A stretch of 64,000 nt of DNA, from the NCBI GenBank assembly GCA_026984045.1, contig JALSSV010000029.1:1-64000 (forward strand). The letters are read 5' to 3'. Under the pieces are notes generated by a model, which was given only the letters and a program-made list of their open reading frames with translations, ran no database searches and was not told the origin of the DNA. Each line of letters begins with the position of its first letter. The stretch's first letter is position 1. Below, in pieces: positions 21,291 to 63,848 of this stretch. Made by a program: the position numbers and the translations under genes. This DNA is from Chromatiales bacterium. Lineage in GTDB: Bacteria; Pseudomonadota; Gammaproteobacteria; UBA6429; Thiohalophilaceae.

Positions 21291-21373
21291 GGGCCGGATT
21301 CGCGGCGCGCCAAAGGCGCCCGGGATCCGTTGACAACGTTCTTCGTTCATTTGCGCATTTGGGGGAGTCCGAG

Positions 21374-22135
21374 ATGAGTGATCATGCTGCTGTACACGAA
21401 CATGCCGAAGAGGTCAGCATCTGGCCGGCGGTGATTTCCATCGGCATTCTGTTCGCGGTGCCCTTCGCCTTTTCCTTCCATTTCGTCTATCACAATGGCC
21501 TGTACGCGGCCCTCTCGCTGGGACTGGGGGTGCCGATGATCGTCATGGGCATCGTCGGCTGGGTGTACGAGGCCCTGCATTCCGAGCCGGTGGCCGAGGG
21601 GCTGGCGCCACCGGCCATGGGCTGGTTCATCCTCGCCGAGGCCCTGATCTTTCTTTCCTTCTTCGCCACCTACTGGGTGGTACGGCTGGGGGCGCCGGTC
21701 TGGCCGCCCGAAGGCACGGTGGAGCTGCCGAAACTGATGCCGCTGGTGATGACCACCGTGCTGGTGACTTCCAGCTTCACCATCCACTTCGCCGAAGGCC
21801 GCCTGGCGCAGGGCGACCGTCGCGGTTTCATCAACTGGCTGATCCTGAGCATGCTGCTTGGCCTCGCCTTCATCAGCATGTCGGCCTATGAGTGGAACCA
21901 CCTGCTGCACGAGGGCTTCACCCCGGCCACCAATATCTTCGGTACCGCTTTCTACACCATCACCGGCTTTCACGGCGCGCACGTGATCGTGGGTCTGGGC
22001 ATCTTCACCGCCATGCTGCTGCCGGCCCTGCGCGGGCAGGTCAACGAAGGGCTGGTGAAATCGGGGTCTCTGTACTGGCACTTCGTGGACATCATCTGGT
22101 TCTTCGTGGTCTCCCAGGTCTATTTCTGGGTGTGA
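21374..22135 (+). CDS. cytochrome c oxidase subunit III
   Basis: The start is the ATG of MSDHAAVHEHAEEV, with GGGGGAG upstream. The 253-residue protein has about seven membrane helices and the subunit III markers: AEALIFLSFFATYW (conserved Glu) and a C-terminal YWHFVDIIWFFVVSQVYF. Subunit III stabilises proton uptake by subunit I. Unusually, it comes before the subunit II and I genes, with a SCO gene in between. Confidence 0.92.
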   Translation: MSDHAAVHEHAEEVSIWPAVISIGILFAVPFAFSFHFVYHNGLYAALSLGLGVPMIVMGIVGWVYEALHSEPVAEGLAPPAMGWFILAEALIFLSFFATYWVVRLGAPVWPPEGTVELPKLMPLVMTTVLVTSSFTIHFAEGRLAQGDRRGFINWLILSMLLGLAFISMSAYEWNHLLHEGFTPATNIFGTAFYTITGFHGAHVIVGLGIFTAMLLPALRGQVNEGLVKSGSLYWHFVDIIWFFVVSQVYFWV

Positions 22136-22136
22136 G

Positions 22137-22991
22137 GTGAAATGGATCGTTCACAAGCGTGGCAGACGGGCCGGCCTCCTGCTGCCGGTTGTCCTGGCCT
22201 GGCTGTTGCCAGCGGGAGGCCTGTGGGCGTTGAGCGACGGCAACACCGAGTCCACCATCGACCCCCAGGTGGTGGCCATCGACGAGCGGGCCTATCTCGG
22301 CGTCCGGCTCGATGGCCATTACCGCCTGCGCGATGCAAAGGGTCAGACCTTCACGCTGGATCGTTATCGTGGCAAGCCGCTGATCCTGCTGTTTTCCTAT
22401 TACACCTGCGATGGCCTCTGCGGCACCATCAACCGGCACCTGCAGACGCTCATCGATGGGGTGCAGCGTTTTCGCCCCGGACGCGATTTTCGGGTGCTCA
22501 CGATCTCTTTCGACAAGCACGACACGCTGGAGCGGATCGCCGGCTTTCGTCAGCGCAATCACCTGGCCAAGCGGCCAGGCTGGACCCTGGCCATTCTCGA
22601 CAATCCCGCCGACATCGTGCCGCTGACGTCCAGCCTGGGCGTGCGCTTCTTCTGGTCGTACCGGGATCGGGTGTTCGTGCATCCCAATGCCTTCATCTTC
22701 ATTTCGCCCCAGGGCCGGGTGGTGCGCTACCTGTACGGCACCCTGGTCAGCCCCCGGGACGTGGAGCTGGCCCTGATCGATGCCAACTGGGAAAAGATTT
22801 CCACTTCCGGCAAGTTGCTCAACATTCTCGCCGGGGTCTGTTTCAGCTACAACTTCAAGGAAGGACGTTACACCGTCAATATCCCGCTGTTCGCGGGGCT
22901 CGGTGCCCTGTTGCTGGGTCTCGTGCTGGTGACGGCGTCCTTCGTGGTGGCGAAAAAGAATCTGCACAGGAGGGAGGCAACAAATGGCTGA
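22137..22991 (+). CDS. SCO1/SenC family copper chaperone with C-terminal membrane anchor
   Basis: The GTG start follows the subunit III stop after one base. The 284-residue product has a signal/anchor helix, a thioredoxin-fold SCO domain with the copper-binding Cys pair in YYTCDGLCG and His in VFVHPNAF, then a segment CFSYNFKEGRYTVN and a C-terminal transmembrane helix. This longer form occurs in oxidase operons of several proteobacteria. It should load the CuA site of subunit II, encoded next, whose start overlaps this gene by 8 bases. Confidence 0.88.
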   Translation: MKWIVHKRGRRAGLLLPVVLAWLLPAGGLWALSDGNTESTIDPQVVAIDERAYLGVRLDGHYRLRDAKGQTFTLDRYRGKPLILLFSYYTCDGLCGTINRHLQTLIDGVQRFRPGRDFRVLTISFDKHDTLERIAGFRQRNHLAKRPGWTLAILDNPADIVPLTSSLGVRFFWSYRDRVFVHPNAFIFISPQGRVVRYLYGTLVSPRDVELALIDANWEKISTSGKLLNILAGVCFSYNFKEGRYTVNIPLFAGLGALLLGLVLVTASFVVAKKNLHRREATNG

Positions 22992-23777
22992 ACCGATGAA
23001 GCGGTGGCTGCGGTGGGCCGGGATGGTGCTGATGCTGACGGCACTCTCCGGCGGAATGGCCCTGGCTCAGAGCCGGGTCGAAACCCAGCGGGTACTGCCG
23101 GGTGAATGGCAGGTGGAGGAACGGGTGATTCCCGACAACGTGTCCGGCTGGGATCACCTGTGGGAGGAGATCCTGATCGACATCACGGTGATCGGCGTGA
23201 TCTTCGCCCTGGTGACCTTCTGGTTCCTGTTCCGCTATCGCCGCCGCGATCCCGACCAGGAGGGGGCCATGCCGAAGCTCAGCGTGGGGCAGGCCGTGGG
23301 CTGGGCGGTCATCCCCGTGTTCGTGTTCATGGCCGACGATTTCTACCTCGCCGCCCAGGGCTGGCAACTCTGGAACGACTATCGCAGTGTCCCCGAGGAC
23401 CGCCTGGAGATTCGCCTCGAATCGGCCATGTGGACCTGGGACTACACCTATCCCAACGGCGTCAAGACCTTCAACGAGCTGCGGGTGCCGGCGGGCAAGC
23501 CGGTGCTGCTGCGCATGACTTCGCGCGACACCATCCACAGCCACTGGATCCCCGACTACCGGGTCAAGGAAGACTCCATGCCCGGGCGCATCACCTACAT
23601 CTGGTTCATGCCGAAGGTGCCGGGTGAACACGTGGTGACCTGCGCCGAATACTGCGGGCACCTGCACTCGCGCATGAAGGGCAAGCTGATCGTGATGGCG
23701 CCGGAAGCGTTCGAGGCCTGGTACGAGGCCGAAGGCGCGAAACTGCAGCAGGCGAAGCTGGAAACCACAGGAGGAGC

Positions 23778-23781
<4 letters not shown>
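22984..23781 (+). CDS. cytochrome c oxidase subunit II (CuA)
   Basis: A 265-residue protein with an N-terminal signal, two transmembrane helices (about 62-82 and 98-120) and a CuA cupredoxin domain. All CuA ligands are visible: His in TIHSHWIPDY, and Cys, Glu, Cys, His and Met in CAEYCGHLHSRM. WTWDYTYPNG is the aromatic patch through which electrons enter from cytochrome c. No fused heme domain is present, so this is an aa3-type rather than caa3-type subunit. Overlaps subunit I by four bases. Confidence 0.94.
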
Positions 23782-25364
<1,583 letters not shown>

Positions 25365-25424
25365 TCCGCAACGGCGGGTCGTGAGACCCGCCATCTGCCT
25401 GTCGATTGTCGAGAGGAGTTCGTC

Positions 25425-26339
25425 ATGCCGCAAGCCGCCATTGCCACCGCCCTGCCGTTGCCCCTGTGGAAGCGTTACCTGGAACTGTGCAAACCCAAGG
25501 TGGTGGCACTCATCGTGTTCACCGCCCTGGTGGGCATGTTCCTCTCCACCCCCGGCATGGTGCCCTGGTCGGCACTGGTCTTCGGCACCCTGGGGATCGG
25601 CCTGGCGGCCGCCTCGGGCGCGGCGCTCAACCACTGGCTGGATCAGCGCATCGACGGCCTGATGGATCGTACCCGGCACCGGCCCCTGCCCCAGGGGGAA
25701 CTGACCTCGGGCAGCGCCCTGGCCTTCGCCCTGGGGCTGGGCGTCCTGGCCATGGCCCTGCTGCTGGCCTTCGTCAACACCCTGACGGCCGTGCTCACCT
25801 TCATCGCCCTGATCGGCTATGCGGTGATCTACACCGTGTTCCTCAAGCGCATGACCGCCCAGAACATCGTGCTCGGCGGTGCCGCCGGGGCCGCGCCTCC
25901 GGTGCTGGGCTGGGCCGCGGCGACCGGTCAGGTGCATCCCGAGGCGATCCTGCTGTTCCTGATCATCTTCGTCTGGACGCCGCCCCATTTCTGGGCCCTG
26001 GCCATCCGCCGTCGCAAGGACTACGCCCGGGCCGGGATCCCCATGCTGCCGGTGACCCGCGGGGTGGCCGTCACCAAGCGCTACATCCTGCTCTATACGC
26101 TGGTCCTGGTGGCGGTGAGCGTGGTGCCCTTTCTGATCCACATGAGCGGCCTTTTGTACCTGGCCGGCGCCCTGGCGCTGGGCACCGGCTTCCTGCACAA
26201 CGCCATCGCCCTGTACCGCGCCCGCGACGACGGCCCGGCGATGAAGACCTTCGGCTATTCGATCTTCTATCTGAGTGCCCTGTTCGCCTTCTTCCTCGGC
26301 GATCACTATCTGCGCCTGTTTCTGCGGCACTGGCTGTGA
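25425..26339 (+). CDS. ctaB: protoheme IX farnesyltransferase (heme O synthase)
   Basis: A 304-residue UbiA-superfamily membrane enzyme. Asp-rich motifs NHWLDQRIDGLMDRTRHRPLP and YTVFLKRMTAQNIVLGG define CtaB/CyoE; WTPPHFWALA is also diagnostic. It converts heme B to heme O, the precursor of the heme A used by the upstream oxidase. It lies 60 bases after subunit I in the same operon, with RBS GAGAGGAG. The next SCO gene begins 10 bases downstream. Confidence 0.95.
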   Translation: MPQAAIATALPLPLWKRYLELCKPKVVALIVFTALVGMFLSTPGMVPWSALVFGTLGIGLAAASGAALNHWLDQRIDGLMDRTRHRPLPQGELTSGSALAFALGLGVLAMALLLAFVNTLTAVLTFIALIGYAVIYTVFLKRMTAQNIVLGGAAGAAPPVLGWAAATGQVHPEAILLFLIIFVWTPPHFWALAIRRRKDYARAGIPMLPVTRGVAVTKRYILLYTLVLVAVSVVPFLIHMSGLLYLAGALALGTGFLHNAIALYRARDDGPAMKTFGYSIFYLSALFAFFLGDHYLRLFLRHWL

Positions 26340-26349
26340 GGGGGAGGCG

Positions 26350-26991
26350 ATGACCAAGACCGGATTGGGCAAACGCCTGCTGCTGTTCTTGGGCCTGGTG
26401 GCGATCGGCATGGCGGGGCTGGCCGTCAAGCGCCAGTGGCGGGCCGAGGCGCTGCCCACCCCGGTCGATGAGGGCCTCACCCGTCTGGCGCCGCCGCTGG
26501 CCCTGCACGCTTTCCGGCTGCACGCCACCACGGGCAAGCCGTTCACGCCGGCAGCCCTGCGCGGTCACTGGTCGCTGCTGTTCTTCGGCTATACCCACTG
26601 CCCCGATGTCTGTCCTGCCACCCTCAAGGTGCTGCAGGCGGTCAAGGCGCAACTGCGTGCCCGCGGACTCCCTGCGCAGGGGATCTTCGTCACCGTGGAT
26701 CCGGCGCGAGACGATCCGGATACCCTGGCGCGTTACCTGGCCTGGTTCGATGACGACTTCCTCGGTGTCACGGGGGAGACGGCGGAACTGGCGGCCCTGC
26801 GGCGCCAGCTCGGGGTGTATGTGGAGGAAACCGACTCCCGCACCGCGGCAGGCTATGTGCTCGCCCATACCGATCGCCTCTACCTGATCGATCCGCAGGG
26901 GCGGGTGGTGGCCCTGTTCAGCGAACGTGCCGACAGTCGCCGCCTCGCCCGGCAGATCGCCGCGGTGATGGAGAGCGAGGGAGAAGGATAG
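26350..26991 (+). CDS. SCO1/SenC family copper chaperone (second copy)
   Basis: The 213-residue product has an N-terminal membrane anchor (about 10-24) and a SCO domain: GYTHCPDVCP supplies the CxxxC pair and VLAHTDRLYLID the His ligand. VTVDPARDDPDTLARYL is the conserved SCO block. RBS GGGGAGG precedes the ATG. It differs clearly from the first SCO protein, lacking the C-terminal anchor. No ctaG/cox11 gene for CuB insertion is seen, so this second SCO may serve part of that task; that is inference. Confidence 0.92.
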   Translation: MTKTGLGKRLLLFLGLVAIGMAGLAVKRQWRAEALPTPVDEGLTRLAPPLALHAFRLHATTGKPFTPAALRGHWSLLFFGYTHCPDVCPATLKVLQAVKAQLRARGLPAQGIFVTVDPARDDPDTLARYLAWFDDDFLGVTGETAELAALRRQLGVYVEETDSRTAAGYVLAHTDRLYLIDPQGRVVALFSERADSRRLARQIAAVMESEGEG

Positions 26992-27065: not shown

Positions 27066-28421
27066 TCAGACCCGCCGCCCCGTCAGGGCCCGCAGCATCA
27101 CCACCACGAACAGCAGGCCGCCGAGGATGGCGATGAGGCCGCCGAGGCCCATCATGGCCATGCCGGCGATCTGCGGCAGGTCGTGCAGATGCTGTGCGGC
27201 GCCGGCGGTCTTGCGCTGCACGCCGTAGCCCCCGGACCACGCCAGGCCCAGGATGTGCAGCAACTGGCCGCCGCCGTAGATCCCGGGTTGCCAGCGGGCC
27301 AGCCGGGAGACGGGCGCGGTGAAGCCGAGTTGTGGCAGCAGATAATAGGCCGTGCCCATGAAGGCCAGGGTCACCCCCACGATGGAACCATGGTAGTGGG
27401 CGGGGATCACCACGTTGATGCCGTGGATCAGCCAGGCGATCACGCCGCCGGCGGCGAACAGCAGGAGAGAGCTGTAGAGGGCCGCGCGCAGCGGGCGTTG
27501 GTGCGGCTCCGGTCGGGGTCTGTTTCGCAGATTGTGCCCGATCAGATACAGGCCCAGGGGGATGGTGGCCAGGCCGCCGCCGTACTGCATCAGGCGGGTG
27601 TAACCGAGCCGGGTTTCTCCGCTGAGCACCGGATGCTGCAGGGCCAGGATTGGCACGTAGACGAGGGGCAGAATCCCCAGCGTGAAGAGGACGATGACCC
27701 AGGCCGGGCGCAGCGGTGCGCTGAGGCCGGCCGCGCAGGCCAGGACCAGCCAGCACAGGGCCAGCAACTGGGTATGAGTGAACTGCAGCACATGGCCGGC
27801 GCCCCAGAACAGGAATTCGAAATAACCGTGGGCATCCAGATGGGTGGGCAGTTCCCGGAAGGTCCAGAGGAACACCAGCAGGGCGAGGGCGGCGGCCAGG
27901 GCCGCGGTGAGGCTGCCGAAGCGCAAGGCCTCCGCTGGCGACAACGGCGTGCGCCAGGGCAGGCCGCCCCCCAGGGTGCTGATCACCAGCAAGCCGAGCC
28001 CGGCGCCGATCAGGGCCAGAGCCGCATAAAAGGCAGGATGCTGCAGTACCGGCAGATAGTTGTTCATGAGGGGATCGCCGATCCCCGCGAAGGGCAGGGC
28101 GGCCATCAGGAGCGTGCCCGCAGCGCACAGGAACAGGGCCGGGCGATCGAGGCGTGGCTGCCGGGGCACGGTGACGTTCCAGAGCACGCCGGCGAAGGCC
28201 GCGAACCAGATGAATACCGACATGTCCACGTGCACCACCAGGGCCGTATGGAAGAAGTCGATCCAGGGAATCGCGTCCTGCACGCCGGGCGTGCGTGAGA
28301 GCACCAGCAGGATGGCGAACACCCCGGCGACGACCAGCGCCGCCACACCGAGCCACAGCCAGCGCAGGGTGGTGCGGCGAACAGCGGCATTAGCCAGCGG
28401 CAGCAGATAGGGGCAGGACAT
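27066..28421 (-). CDS. orphan heme-copper-oxidase subunit I-like membrane protein
   Basis: A 451-residue protein with about 12 membrane helices, related to CcoN/NorB-like subunit I. FFHTALVVH (His58/His64) resembles the helix II heme ligand region (compare VHTTLVI of CcoN), and PAHYHGSIVG (His342, His344) matches the helix X His-x-His. In helix VI GHVLQFTHT offers His210, but the His-His pair of helix VII that completes the CuB site is missing: only LQHP (His263) is found nearby. It has a strong RBS (AAGGAG) and no adjacent partner subunit. It may be an unusual oxidase/NO reductase-like protein or a non-catalytic heme protein. Confidence 0.75.
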   Translation of the reverse strand: MSCPYLLPLANAAVRRTTLRWLWLGVAALVVAGVFAILLVLSRTPGVQDAIPWIDFFHTALVVHVDMSVFIWFAAFAGVLWNVTVPRQPRLDRPALFLCAAGTLLMAALPFAGIGDPLMNNYLPVLQHPAFYAALALIGAGLGLLVISTLGGGLPWRTPLSPAEALRFGSLTAALAAALALLVFLWTFRELPTHLDAHGYFEFLFWGAGHVLQFTHTQLLALCWLVLACAAGLSAPLRPAWVIVLFTLGILPLVYVPILALQHPVLSGETRLGYTRLMQYGGGLATIPLGLYLIGHNLRNRPRPEPHQRPLRAALYSSLLLFAAGGVIAWLIHGINVVIPAHYHGSIVGVTLAFMGTAYYLLPQLGFTAPVSRLARWQPGIYGGGQLLHILGLAWSGGYGVQRKTAGAAQHLHDLPQIAGMAMMGLGGLIAILGGLLFVVVMLRALTGRRV

Positions 28422-28491
28422 GGCGTCTCCTTGCGATATGAAGTTCCTGAAACCTGTTCACTCAGGGGCGAGGGTATCTGAATTCAATACC

Positions 28492-28580
28492 GCCCTCCGA
28501 GACAGAGAGGCATTTCGTGACGCGCCGTGAATACATCCCTGCGGCCGACGGTCACGAAATGCCTCTCTGTCTCGGAGGGC
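28492..28580. repeat. long hairpin repeat, family copy B
   Basis: Perfect 30-bp inverted arms (28492-28521 and 28551-28580) enclose a 29-base loop. Read on the minus strand, the arm end and loop give TTCGTGACCGTCGGC, GCAGGGATGTATTCACGGCG, which closely match the loop of the hairpin at 13985-14096. The arms themselves are unrelated between the two copies. It lies between the divergent starts of the orphan oxidase-like gene and ctaA. Confidence 0.8.
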
Positions 28581-28656
28581 TCTGTGCACACGATGAATTG
28601 TGGTCAGGAATTTGGAACATCTTGATTGTTGGTGGCGACAAAACGAGGGTGGCGTA

Positions 28657-29772
28657 ATGGCAGGCAATGATGTTGTTGTTGATGTTTCCGGAAGTATAGC
28701 CACAAACCGGGCGGATGTGATCGGGGCGCGCGATGCGGCCGGCGGCGCGGGGTTCCACCGGCTGGCGCGATTTGCCGCCGTGCTGGCGTTTGCCGTGATC
28801 CTGCTCGGCGCCTGGGTGCGGCTGTCCGATGCCGGCCTGGGCTGTCCCGACTGGCCGGGGTGTTACGGCCATCTGGACGTGCCGGCCGAACCCCACGAGG
28901 TGGCTCGCGCCAACGCCATCTATCCGGAACGGCCGGTCGAGACGCACAAGGCCTGGAAGGAGATGATTCACCGCTACTTCGCCGGCACCCTCGGGCTGGT
29001 CGTGTTCGTACTGGCGGGATGGGCGTTGGCACGGCGCCAGCAGCCGGGGCAACCGGTCGCCGTTCCCGTGCTGCTGGCCGGCGTGGTGATCCTGCAGGCC
29101 CTGCTGGGCATGTGGACGGTGACCATCCGCCTCAATCCCACCATCGTGATGCTGCACCTGATCGGCGGTTTCACCACCCTCTCGCTGTTGTGGTGGCTGG
29201 TGCTGCGCAGCCCCGGCAGTCCGCTACCGGCCACCGCCGGGTCCGGCAGGCGCCTGGCCTGGCTGGCCGGGGTGGGGCTGGTGCTGGTGATCGGCCAGAT
29301 CATGCTCGGCGGCTGGACCAGCGCCAACTATGCGGCTCTCCACTGTCCCGATTTCCCCACCTGTCAGGGCGACTGGCTGCCACCACTGGATTACGGCGAA
29401 GCCTTCGTCCCCTGGCGCGGCAGTGAACTCGATTTCGAGGGGGGCGTGCTCGACAACACGGCGCGGGTCACCATTCATTTCACCCACCGCCTCGGCGCAT
29501 TGCTGGTGTTGCTGTACGTGGGCGGCCTGGCCCTGTGGCTGCGCCGGCCCGGCCAGCCGTCCCGCCTGCGCCGGTTTGCCCCGGTCCTGCTGGCGGCCCT
29601 GGCGCTGCAGATCGGGCTGGGGATTTCCAACGTCGTCTTCTCCCTGCCGCTGCCGGTGGCCGTGGCCCACAATGGTGGCGGCGCGTTGTTGCTGCTTAGC
29701 CTGGTGACGCTCAACCATCTGGTGCATGGCGGGGAAGGCAAGGGTCGAGGAATGAGCGGCGAGGAGGCGTGA
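28657..29772 (+). CDS. ctaA: heme A synthase (COX15/CtaA)
   Basis: A 371-residue membrane protein of eight helices in two related halves. Conserved marks include LGAWVRLSDAGLGCPDWPGCYG, the Glu/His-bearing KEMIHRYFAGTLG, LGGWTSANYAALHCPDFPTCQG and ITHFTHRLGALL-like VTIHFTHRLGALL. It oxidises the methyl group of heme O to a formyl, making heme A. The start at 28657 (MAGNDVVV) has GAGGGTGG upstream; longer frames extend into the hairpin region. A long first loop between the two Cys motifs is normal. Confidence 0.93.
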   Translation: MAGNDVVVDVSGSIATNRADVIGARDAAGGAGFHRLARFAAVLAFAVILLGAWVRLSDAGLGCPDWPGCYGHLDVPAEPHEVARANAIYPERPVETHKAWKEMIHRYFAGTLGLVVFVLAGWALARRQQPGQPVAVPVLLAGVVILQALLGMWTVTIRLNPTIVMLHLIGGFTTLSLLWWLVLRSPGSPLPATAGSGRRLAWLAGVGLVLVIGQIMLGGWTSANYAALHCPDFPTCQGDWLPPLDYGEAFVPWRGSELDFEGGVLDNTARVTIHFTHRLGALLVLLYVGGLALWLRRPGQPSRLRRFAPVLLAALALQIGLGISNVVFSLPLPVAVAHNGGGALLLLSLVTLNHLVHGGEGKGRGMSGEEA

Positions 29773-30111: not shown

Positions 30112-30202
30112 AGGTCTCCTTGCCGGTAGTACCCGAGTGTTTTTCTCAAGTATTTTCGGCATGGAGATTTCTGGCATCACCACGAGAATCAAGAGGCAAA
30201 CA

Positions 30203-31636
<1,434 letters not shown>

Positions 31637-31673
31637 GCGTCGTACCACCACACCGTATTCAGGAATCTGCAAC

Positions 31674-32420
31674 ATGAAACACGAAACGATTGAAACGAAT
31701 GCCGGCTGGCTCATCGTCCTGGTCATGATCGTGATCAGCATCGGTGGCCTGGTCGAGATCATTCCGCTGTATTTCATCAACAACACGGTGGAAACCGTGA
31801 AGGTGGACGGCAAGGACACCATCCGTCCCTATACGCCGCTGGAACTGCGTGGCCGCGACATCTATATGCGCGAAGGCTGCTATCTGTGTCATTCGCAGAT
31901 GATTCGCCCCTTCCGGGACGAGGACATGCGCTATGGTCACTATTCGCTGGCCGCCGAGAGCCAGTACGATCACCCCTTCCAGTGGGGCTCCAAGCGCACC
32001 GGTCCGGACCTGGCCCGGGTGGGGGGCAAGTACTCCAACGCCTGGCACTTCCAGCACCTGATGAATCCCCGTTCCGTGGTACCGGAATCCATCATGCCCA
32101 ACTTCCCCTGGCTGAAGGAACCGCTGGCCTACGCCGACATCAAGGAGCGGATGCGGGCCCTCAAGGCCGTGGGCGTCCCCTATTCGGAGACCCAGGCCGA
32201 GTATGACGCCAACGTGAAACGCTTCGGCAAGGACGTGGCCGACAAGCTCAACATCCTCAAAGCCGACGACAACCTGATCGCCCAGGCTACCCAGGGCAAT
32301 TACGACGGCAAGCCGGACGACGTTTCCGAGGCCGATGCCCTGATCGCCTACCTGCAGGTGCTCGGCACCATGGTCGACTTCAGCAAGTTCGAAGAAGGCT
32401 ATTTCGCCGAGTTCCGCTAA
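31674..32420 (+). CDS. ccoO: cbb3-type cytochrome c oxidase subunit II (monoheme cytochrome c)
   Basis: A 248-residue membrane-anchored monoheme cytochrome. One N-terminal helix (about 10-34) precedes the heme motif CYLCH (69-73); the distal Met is likely in [40 protein letters not shown] is the well-conserved CcoO block. It relays electrons from CcoP to CcoN. It lies 37 bases after ccoN and 12 before ccoQ. Confidence 0.96.
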
Positions 32421-32432
32421 GCGGAGATCACG

Positions 32433-32627
32433 ATGTCAGAATGGCTGGAATGGTTCACCCACATGGAGAACACCAAGCCCTTTGCGCTGGTGCTGTTCTT
32501 CATCACCTTCGTGGGCATCATTCTGTACCTGTTCACTGGCAAGAAGCGCGCCAAGCGTCTCGAGTCGTACAAGAACATACCGTTTGAGGACGACGACGAT
32601 CGTCGTCACGAGGATTCGCAATCATGA
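32433..32627 (+). CDS. ccoQ: cbb3 oxidase small subunit CcoQ
   Basis: A 64-residue protein with one transmembrane helix (PFALVLFFITFVGIILYLF) followed by a basic then acidic tail (KKRAKRLESYKNIPFEDDDD). That pattern and position identify CcoQ/FixQ, which stabilises the association of CcoP with the complex. The start is ATG at 32433 and the end overlaps ccoP by four bases. Confidence 0.9.
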   Translation: MSEWLEWFTHMENTKPFALVLFFITFVGIILYLFTGKKRAKRLESYKNIPFEDDDDRRHEDSQS

Positions 32628-33532
32628 GCAAAGACAAGACCCAAAAATCCGTGCAGACCACCGGGCATTCCTGGGACGGGGATCTCCAGGAATACAACAA
32701 TCCCCTGCCGCGCTGGTGGCTGTGGGCTTTCTACGCCACCATCGTTTTCGCGGTGGTCTACTGGTTCCTGTATCCCACCCTGCCCATCGGGCGGGACTAC
32801 ACCAAGGGGATCGGCAACGAAATCACCTACACCACGGCCGACGGCAAGACCGTTACCACCCACTGGAACACCCGTGCCCTGTTCCTGAAGGAGCAGGAAG
32901 AGGCCCGCAAGCGGCAGGCGGTCTACCTCGAGAAGCTGGCCAAGGCCAGTTACGAGGACATCGCCAAGGATCCGGAACTGTCCGCCTTCGTCTTTTCCCG
33001 CGCCAAGGTGCTGTTCGCCGACAACTGCGCCGCCTGTCACCAGCGTGGCGGCAATGGCGTGCTGGGTGAATACCCCAACCTGCTGGACGATTCCTGGCTG
33101 TGGGGGGGGACCTTCGCCGACATCCAGCAGACCATCACCAATGGCCGGCACGGCAACATGCCGGCCTGGAAGGGGCAGCTCTCGGATCAGCAAATCGGCG
33201 ACGTGGTCGAATACGTGCTGAGCCTCTCCGGCGAGCCGGTGGATGCCGACAGGGCGGCCCGGGGCAAGACCGTGTTCATGAACAACTGCGCCGTCTGCCA
33301 CGGTCAGGATGCCAGGGGCCAGAAATTCCTGGGTTCGGCCAACCTGACCGACAAGATCTGGACCATCGCCAAGGTGCCGCAGGCCAACAGTCTCGACGGC
33401 AAGCGCAACGCCGTGCGCCAGGTGGTCGAGAACGGCAAGCGCCGGACCATGCCGGCCTGGAAGGGTCGCCTGTCCGATACGGAAATCAAGATCCTGACCT
33501 ATTACGTGCACGAACTGGGCGGCGGGCAGTAG
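32624..33532 (+). CDS. ccoP: cbb3-type cytochrome c oxidase subunit III (diheme cytochrome c)
   Basis: The 302-residue protein has one membrane helix (about 32-52) and two heme c domains with CAACH (135-139) and CAVCH (222-226). Met ligands lie in GNMPAWKGQL and RTMPAWKGRL, an obvious internal repeat. It is the electron entry point of the cbb3 oxidase, accepting electrons from soluble cytochromes. The N-terminal extension before the helix (GHSWDGDLQEYNNPLPRWW) is the typical CcoP signature. Confidence 0.96.
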   Translation: MSKDKTQKSVQTTGHSWDGDLQEYNNPLPRWWLWAFYATIVFAVVYWFLYPTLPIGRDYTKGIGNEITYTTADGKTVTTHWNTRALFLKEQEEARKRQAVYLEKLAKASYEDIAKDPELSAFVFSRAKVLFADNCAACHQRGGNGVLGEYPNLLDDSWLWGGTFADIQQTITNGRHGNMPAWKGQLSDQQIGDVVEYVLSLSGEPVDADRAARGKTVFMNNCAVCHGQDARGQKFLGSANLTDKIWTIAKVPQANSLDGKRNAVRQVVENGKRRTMPAWKGRLSDTEIKILTYYVHELGGGQ

Positions 33533-63042: not shown

Positions 63043-63056
63043 TTGACCCAGGTCAA
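63043..63056. promoter_or_regulatory. Dnr/FNR-type operator upstream of dnr
   Basis: TTGACCCAGGTCAA is a palindromic TTGAC-N4-GTCAA site 64 bases before the dnr start. It nearly equals the site before norC. Its half-sites are of the NNR/DNR variety (compare TTGATnnnnATCAA for FNR). Confidence 0.7.
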
Positions 63057-63834: not shown

Positions 63835-63848
63835 TTGACCTGGGTCAA
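63835..63848. promoter_or_regulatory. Dnr/FNR-type operator upstream of norC
   Basis: TTGACCTGGGTCAA lies 64 bases before the norC ATG. Centre spacing fits class II activation: GAACAT at 63871-63876, 22 bases downstream, could serve as the -10. Confidence 0.75.

Follow-up and report, generated by a model that had tools for sequence, protein, structure and literature searches.

A conserved family of heme-copper-oxidase-like proteins without the CuB histidine pair, related to eNOR and linked to aa3 oxidase and heme A biogenesis genes

Introduction

Subunits I of the heme-copper oxidase (HCO) superfamily share a twelve-helix COX1 fold and carry three heme-ligand histidines (one in helix II and two in helix X) together with three CuB or FeB histidines (one in helix VI and a pair in helix VII). 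Oxygen reductases of types A and B have a His-Tyr pair in helix VI, and the NO reductases cNOR and qNOR have the helix-VII pair and the helix-VI Glu of NorB. The closest described relative of the proteins considered here is eNOR, a source of the greenhouse gas N2O that has received little study. It has a complete helix-VII pair and an adjoining cupredoxin subunit II, and its diagnostic feature is a Gln that replaces the cross-linked Tyr (PMC8756737).

Here we describe P0001, encoded in a 64,000-nt stretch of a Chromatiales bacterium genome (contig JALSSV010000029.1, positions 1 to 64,000; hereinafter, the window). It belongs to a conserved, unnamed family of membrane proteins whose architecture is that of a respiratory oxidase core. 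This widespread family has the HCO fold, with the catalytic copper site dismantled and both heme sites apparently kept. A literature search for HCO proteins lacking CuB yielded no relevant description, the main eNOR survey (PNAS 2024) being outside that comparison. A published HCO classifier discards sequences without all six histidines (PMC3084760), which may explain why the family has gone unnamed. For understanding the role of CuB, a naturally CuB-less oxidase would offer a helpful point of comparison.

Results

P0001 Gene and Protein Fold

P0001 is encoded on the minus strand at 27066–28421, in a frame of 451 aa running from an ATG at 28421 to a stop at 27066. The gene has the strong ribosome-binding site of its own that had been claimed for it, a Shine-Dalgarno AAGGAG at 28427–28432 (minus strand), 5 nt ahead of the ATG. 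The COX1 (PF00115) match of the protein scores 53 bits, compared to the Pfam cut-off of 34.8, an NCBIfam search assigns it to no family, and a plasmid search found no relatives on plasmids. Comparison with the sister genome gives dN 0.15, dS 0.67 and dN/dS about 0.23, that is, purifying selection.

The AF2 model, built with 35 homologues as a protein chain without cofactors, is confident (pLDDT 86.5, pTM 0.90) and has the twelve transmembrane helices of the original prediction. The assignment to the heme-copper superfamily also stands, with PF00115 above the cut-off and all PDB structure matches listed for P0001 being HCO subunits I, the best Foldseek one a ba3 oxidase (E 6e-8). Searches of PDB by sequence (phmmer and profile) yield one weak true relative, a ba3-type oxidase. 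Structural alignment with VIA-align gives Z of 27–30 to A-, B- and C-type oxidases and to NorB, and as several HCO types are tied, the fold alone picks no subfamily.

Conserved Residues of the Heme and CuB Sites

About 60 full-length relatives were initially gathered from public genomes, and others fetched later brought the family set to 71 homologues, mostly from Gammaproteobacteria, with a few from Nitrospirota, Alphaproteobacteria and other taxa. Residues were counted in an alignment of these 71 with 17 eNOR, 10 B-type and 5 paralogue sequences; all codon coordinates below are on the minus strand.

The three heme-ligand histidines are retained in 71/71 homologues. They are H64 in helix II (28230–28232), the predicted low-spin heme ligand, and the two histidines of H342-Y343-H344 in helix X (27390–27398), the predicted high-spin and low-spin ligands. 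The helix-X motif on which the original prediction relied, PAHYHGSIVG, comprises residues 340–349, and H342 and H344 align to the helix-X ligands of eNOR and B-type oxidases. Also present in 71/71 is R403-K404 (27210–27215), aligned to the Arg-Arg pair that serves the heme propionates in HCOs.

Of the three CuB/FeB histidines, only that of helix VI is kept, H210 (27792–27794; 71/71). The helix-VII pair is His-His in every eNOR and B-type row of the alignment and in none of the 71 homologues; as first noted for P0001, where the position is I258-L259 (27645–27650), it is lost, and hydrophobic residues stand there throughout the family. The loss of the pair is hence a family trait and not a local decay. 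The original prediction had left room for a complete three-histidine CuB site made of residues it had not recognized, yet the 71 homologues contain no other conserved histidine set. H263 (in LQHP) lies three to four residues from the pair position and is His in 16/71, position 270 is His in 51/71, and neither makes a ligand pattern of the family.

Helix VI is altered as well. E202 (27816–27818), eight residues ahead of H210, is Glu in 70/71 homologues and Arg or Lys in eNOR and B-type sequences. Q213 (27783–27785), at H+3, is invariant in the family, common to the paralogues and found in 17/17 eNOR, compared to Val in 10/10 B-type rows. At H+4, the active-site position, which is Tyr in the B-type rows and Gln in 17/17 eNOR rows, the family has Phe, Leu or Met in 71/71 and Phe in 68/71. 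In P0001, F214 replaces the Tyr, and hence the His-Tyr pair of A- and B-type oxygen reductases is absent, as are both the helix-VII His-His and the helix-VI Glu of cNOR and qNOR: the helix reads GHVLQF, as opposed to HLWVE in NorB of the same genome. M278 in helix VIII (27588–27590), invariant in the family and the paralogues, may be a part of an unusual distal site.

The lost catalytic ligands and the long branch of the family could suggest that P0001 is a decaying eNOR relic. However, the ligands were lost long ago and in all members alike, other sites do not vary even between distant taxa, and the gene has an open frame, a good ribosome-binding site and the low dN/dS given above. We reject this explanation on conservation and dN/dS and consider it extremely improbable.

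A distal metal site of a non-canonical kind, composed of H210, Q213 and M278, would make P0001 an active NO or O2 reductase. None of the three residues varies within the family or in those paralogues for which the positions were covered, Q213 is common to eNOR, and the nearest relatives are NO reductases. Still, two of the three CuB ligands are hydrophobic in 71/71 homologues, Phe occupies the Tyr/Gln position in 68/71, and about half of the contexts contain no dedicated subunit II, making such activity improbable. The same low probability is given to a broader version, in which the family is a separate HCO branch with H210, Q213 and M278 forming a new distal metal or heme-ligand site, whose novel NO or O2 chemistry would be used alongside eNOR and the aa3 oxidase.

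Relationship to eNOR and Other HCO Families

In profile comparison, the P0001 family matches eNOR subunit I end to end over 434 columns (probability 99.8%, E 7.5e-29), compared to only 82% and E 1e-5 for B-type oxidases. The family and the paralogues join eNOR in both trees, with support of 98/92 in the first. The second tree also includes named sequences carried on plasmids, from Thermus, Thermomicrobium, haloarchaea and others; here, the family is a separate clade beside eNOR (support 91/84, branch 2.63). The branch leading to it is 2.6–3.2 changes per site in the two trees. The nearest relative of the family is thus eNOR. A sister relationship of the two has support but is provisional, as the branch is long and the set contains no confirmed sNOR, gNOR, nNOR or CuANOR sequences, the collected B-type rows all carrying Tyr.

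Judged by its sequence, P0001 itself is not an eNOR, because two eNOR-defining residues fail. The family shares with eNOR subunit I the fold, all heme ligands, the helix-VI His and Gln at H+3, as well as operons in many gammaproteobacteria; P0001 differs in the lack of the helix-VII pair, the replacement of Gln by Phe at H+4 and of Arg/Lys by Glu at H–8, and a smaller size (451 aa vs. about 578 aa). The family does not branch inside the eNOR clade but sits on a very long branch of its own, and no dedicated cupredoxin subunit adjoins the P0001 gene in the window. We call the gammaproteobacterial proteins eNOR by their diagnostic Gln and adjoining cupredoxin subunit rather than by activity.

Other HCO types share with P0001 the fold and the heme ligands. 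B-type (ba3) subunit I (1ehk, Z 27.7, rmsd 3.5) also has the helix-VI His, but P0001 lacks both its His-Tyr pair and its helix-VII His-His. NorB of cNOR (4xyd, Z 28.9) is of similar length, but P0001 is far from it in the tree, lacks the helix-VII His-His and the helix-VI HxxxE of NorB, and has no NorC partner. CcoN of cbb3 oxidase (3mk7, Z 27.6) is also far in the tree, and P0001 has neither the CuB pair nor CcoO and CcoP partners of its own; the genome encodes two CcoN, one of them inside the window. The NO-reductase-like branch of the original prediction therefore agrees with the phylogeny, with eNOR as the nearest group and a long separate branch, but not with catalysis, as two of the three CuB/FeB histidines and the active-site Tyr, Gln or Glu are gone in all relatives.

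Genomic Neighborhood of P0001

The gene is located between two sets of oxidase genes on the plus strand. On one side is an aa3-type oxidase operon (21359–26339) consisting of coxC (21359–22135), a SCO-like gene (22137–22991), coxB (22984–23781), coxA (23778–25364) and ctaB (25425–26339), followed by a gene of a SCO1/SenC copper chaperone (26311–26991; Pfam SCO1-SenC, 7.5e-42). On the other side are ctaA, encoding heme A synthase (28600–29772; Pfam COX15-CtaA, 3.4e-84), and, downstream of it, cbb3 oxidase genes ccoNOP (30137–33532; Pfam COX1, FixO, FixP_N). The original description of the gene as transcribed away from the oxidase operon applies to ctaA and ccoNOP (28600 onwards), which diverge from it, but not to the coxC–SCO–coxB–coxA–ctaB–SCO1 stretch (21359–26991), which converges with it tail to tail. 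Likewise, the gene is an orphan within the window but not across genomes, as many orthologues lie in eNOR operons.

Between the P0001 gene and ctaA, a perfect 30-bp inverted repeat with a 29-nt loop is present at 28492–28580. Similar sequence has 65 matches genome-wide, suggesting a dispersed repeat of the MITE or REP kind, and we rejected it as a regulator of P0001. Two perfect FNR/Dnr-type boxes occur in the window at 63043–63056 and 63835–63848 (TTGACCCAGGTCAA, TTGACCTGGGTCAA), shortly ahead of cNOR genes lying at and beyond the window end (norB at contig position 64362). No FNR/Dnr box is found upstream of P0001, and control of the gene by an NO regulator was also rejected.

This bears on the proposal of a heme sensor, or more generally of a heme-based gas sensor or sink in which a copper-free high-spin heme on H342, with H210 and Q213 on the distal side, reversibly binds NO, O2 or CO. 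Without CuB in the distal pocket, the heme would be open or His-gated, and some NO reductase is encoded in 26 of the 29 family carriers (p 3e-10). On the other hand, P0001 has no signalling domain, no linked regulator is conserved with the family, boxes are missing where the nearby norCB has two perfect ones, and the link with ctaA and SCO is left unexplained. We thus regard both the sensor and the sink as unlikely.

Distribution and Gene Settings

Within 8 kb, 30 out of 68 family loci contain eNOR or cytochrome b–FeS genes, and 28 contain ctaA, ctaB, SCO or cox genes. The remaining ten, some with short flanks, have neither setting; in eight loci of this kind, the flank extends for 5 kb or more on one side. 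Models of the neighbors were built from the same loci, with Pfam matches at two of them, the window and L041, fixing the identities. At least seven switches between settings are needed on the family tree.

In the first setting, the family gene closes an operon that also encodes a cupredoxin subunit, subunit I of eNOR, frequently CtaB, a SCO-like protein, a fusion of cytochrome b with two 4Fe-4S motifs and an FlpD-like part, and a 181-aa protein that has no match in Pfam. The cupredoxin subunit precedes a true eNOR gene in other genomes. In the second setting, as in the window, the family gene is adjacent to ctaA, ctaB, SCO1, SURF1 or cox genes. In Halieaceae-type loci it adjoins a TlpA-like gene.

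The class was represented by 276 genomes, of which 29 encode a family member, 25 eNOR and 20 both, that is, the family is present in 20/25 eNOR genomes vs. 9/251 others. The co-occurrence is significant (20/5/9/242, p 3e-19), also with families collapsed (15/4/6/134, p 4e-13); neither test wholly corrects for shared ancestry. ctaA is found in 28/29 carriers vs. 146/247 non-carriers (p 2e-5), including 9/9 carriers without eNOR; out of these nine, six have cNOR, among them the P0001 genome. Operons with eNOR but without the family gene are seen in G174, G227, Defluviimonas, Thermus and Thermomicrobium, and the last three show that eNOR does not need it everywhere.

A paralogue of P0001 with about 41% identity and the same ligand pattern is encoded in the same genome (contig C66, L080 7332–8669). 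Its operon comprises genes for a multiheme cytochrome c, ResB, CcsA, the paralogue and a TlpA-like (thioredoxin-like) protein, and this order, with overlapping gene ends, is seen in two more genomes (L083, L111). As ResB and CcsA are cytochrome c maturation proteins, both branches of the fold are found in heme- and copper-handling neighborhoods.

Possible Functional Role

The factors common to these settings, CuA, synthesis of hemes o and a, SCO or TlpA proteins and, for the paralogue, heme attachment, favor a heme/redox helper. We tentatively propose, at somewhat less than an even chance, that P0001 is a two-heme, CuB-less membrane helper for making or maintaining CuA and heme-a/o enzymes. 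The family would have arisen beside the eNOR lineage, dismantled the CuB site and kept both heme sites. P0001 would hold a bis-His low-spin heme on H64 and H344 and a second heme on H342, facing H210 and Q213, with no copper. Such a protein would not reduce O2 or NO by the known mechanism, nor would it be expected to pump protons. Less certainly, its clients may be the aa3 oxidase in the P0001 genome and eNOR elsewhere, and it may act together with the thioredoxin-fold proteins encoded nearby (SCO or TlpA), either as a heme holder or as an electron carrier in the assembly process.

Among the functions offered by the original prediction, an assembly factor fits best, given the location of the gene among ctaA, ctaB, SCO and SURF1 or in eNOR operons and that of the paralogue with ResB, CcsA and a thioredoxin-like gene, which suggests such a function. 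However, as some eNOR operons and most ctaA genomes lack the gene, it is not a general assembly factor. With ties to eNOR as well as to aa3/heme-A biogenesis, the protein could represent a helper so far missing from both systems.

Biogenesis genes often lie beside oxidase structural genes, and hence proximity alone cannot separate assembly from electron transfer. In eNOR operons, moreover, the family gene lies among structural genes and could encode a structural subunit, namely a second two-heme cytochrome docked on eNOR or the aa3 oxidase and passing electrons to it, for instance from the cytochrome b/4Fe-4S fusion of the eNOR operon. The frequent last position of the gene, right after the cytochrome b–FeS and 181-aa genes, the strong co-occurrence with eNOR and the two retained heme sites are consistent with this. 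But eNOR operons without the family gene keep the cytochrome b–FeS and 181-aa genes intact, the P0001 genome has no eNOR and only a weak partial cytochrome b–FeS match, and the P0001 gene is separate and convergent in the window. Moreover, in the HCO fold both hemes are on the same membrane side, so that electrons would not be carried across the membrane. We consider a structural electron-transfer subunit rather unlikely.

Additional Observations on eNOR Operons and Divergent HCO-Like Proteins

The proteobacterial eNOR operon with the cytochrome b–2x4Fe-4S–FlpD-like fusion and the 181-aa protein is represented by L041 (402–6473) and L123 (8385–14924). In many loci the eNOR operon also carries hemerythrin: a hemerythrin-domain gene adjoins the family gene in L075 (9555–9959) and similar loci, and in L118 and L119 it is located inside an eNOR operon where the family gene is absent. 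In a plasmid record of an eNOR operon, subunit I is annotated as “cbb3-type cytochrome c oxidase subunit I.”

Several other HCO-like proteins depart from the usual ligand pattern. An eNOR-like subunit I from Thermus thermophilus plasmid pTF24b (L125 6983–8668) has GHFKG in helix X, with the second His, the low-spin ligand, being Lys. A very divergent protein with FVPGYFHF, encoded on an Azospirillum brasilense plasmid (L138, around 2001–2756), lacks one helix-VII His and the first helix-X His. Finally, a COX1-like protein of about 175 aa (L006, G000:C21:32231–32632) aligns to PF00115 over the N-terminal third alone, with a score below the cut-off.
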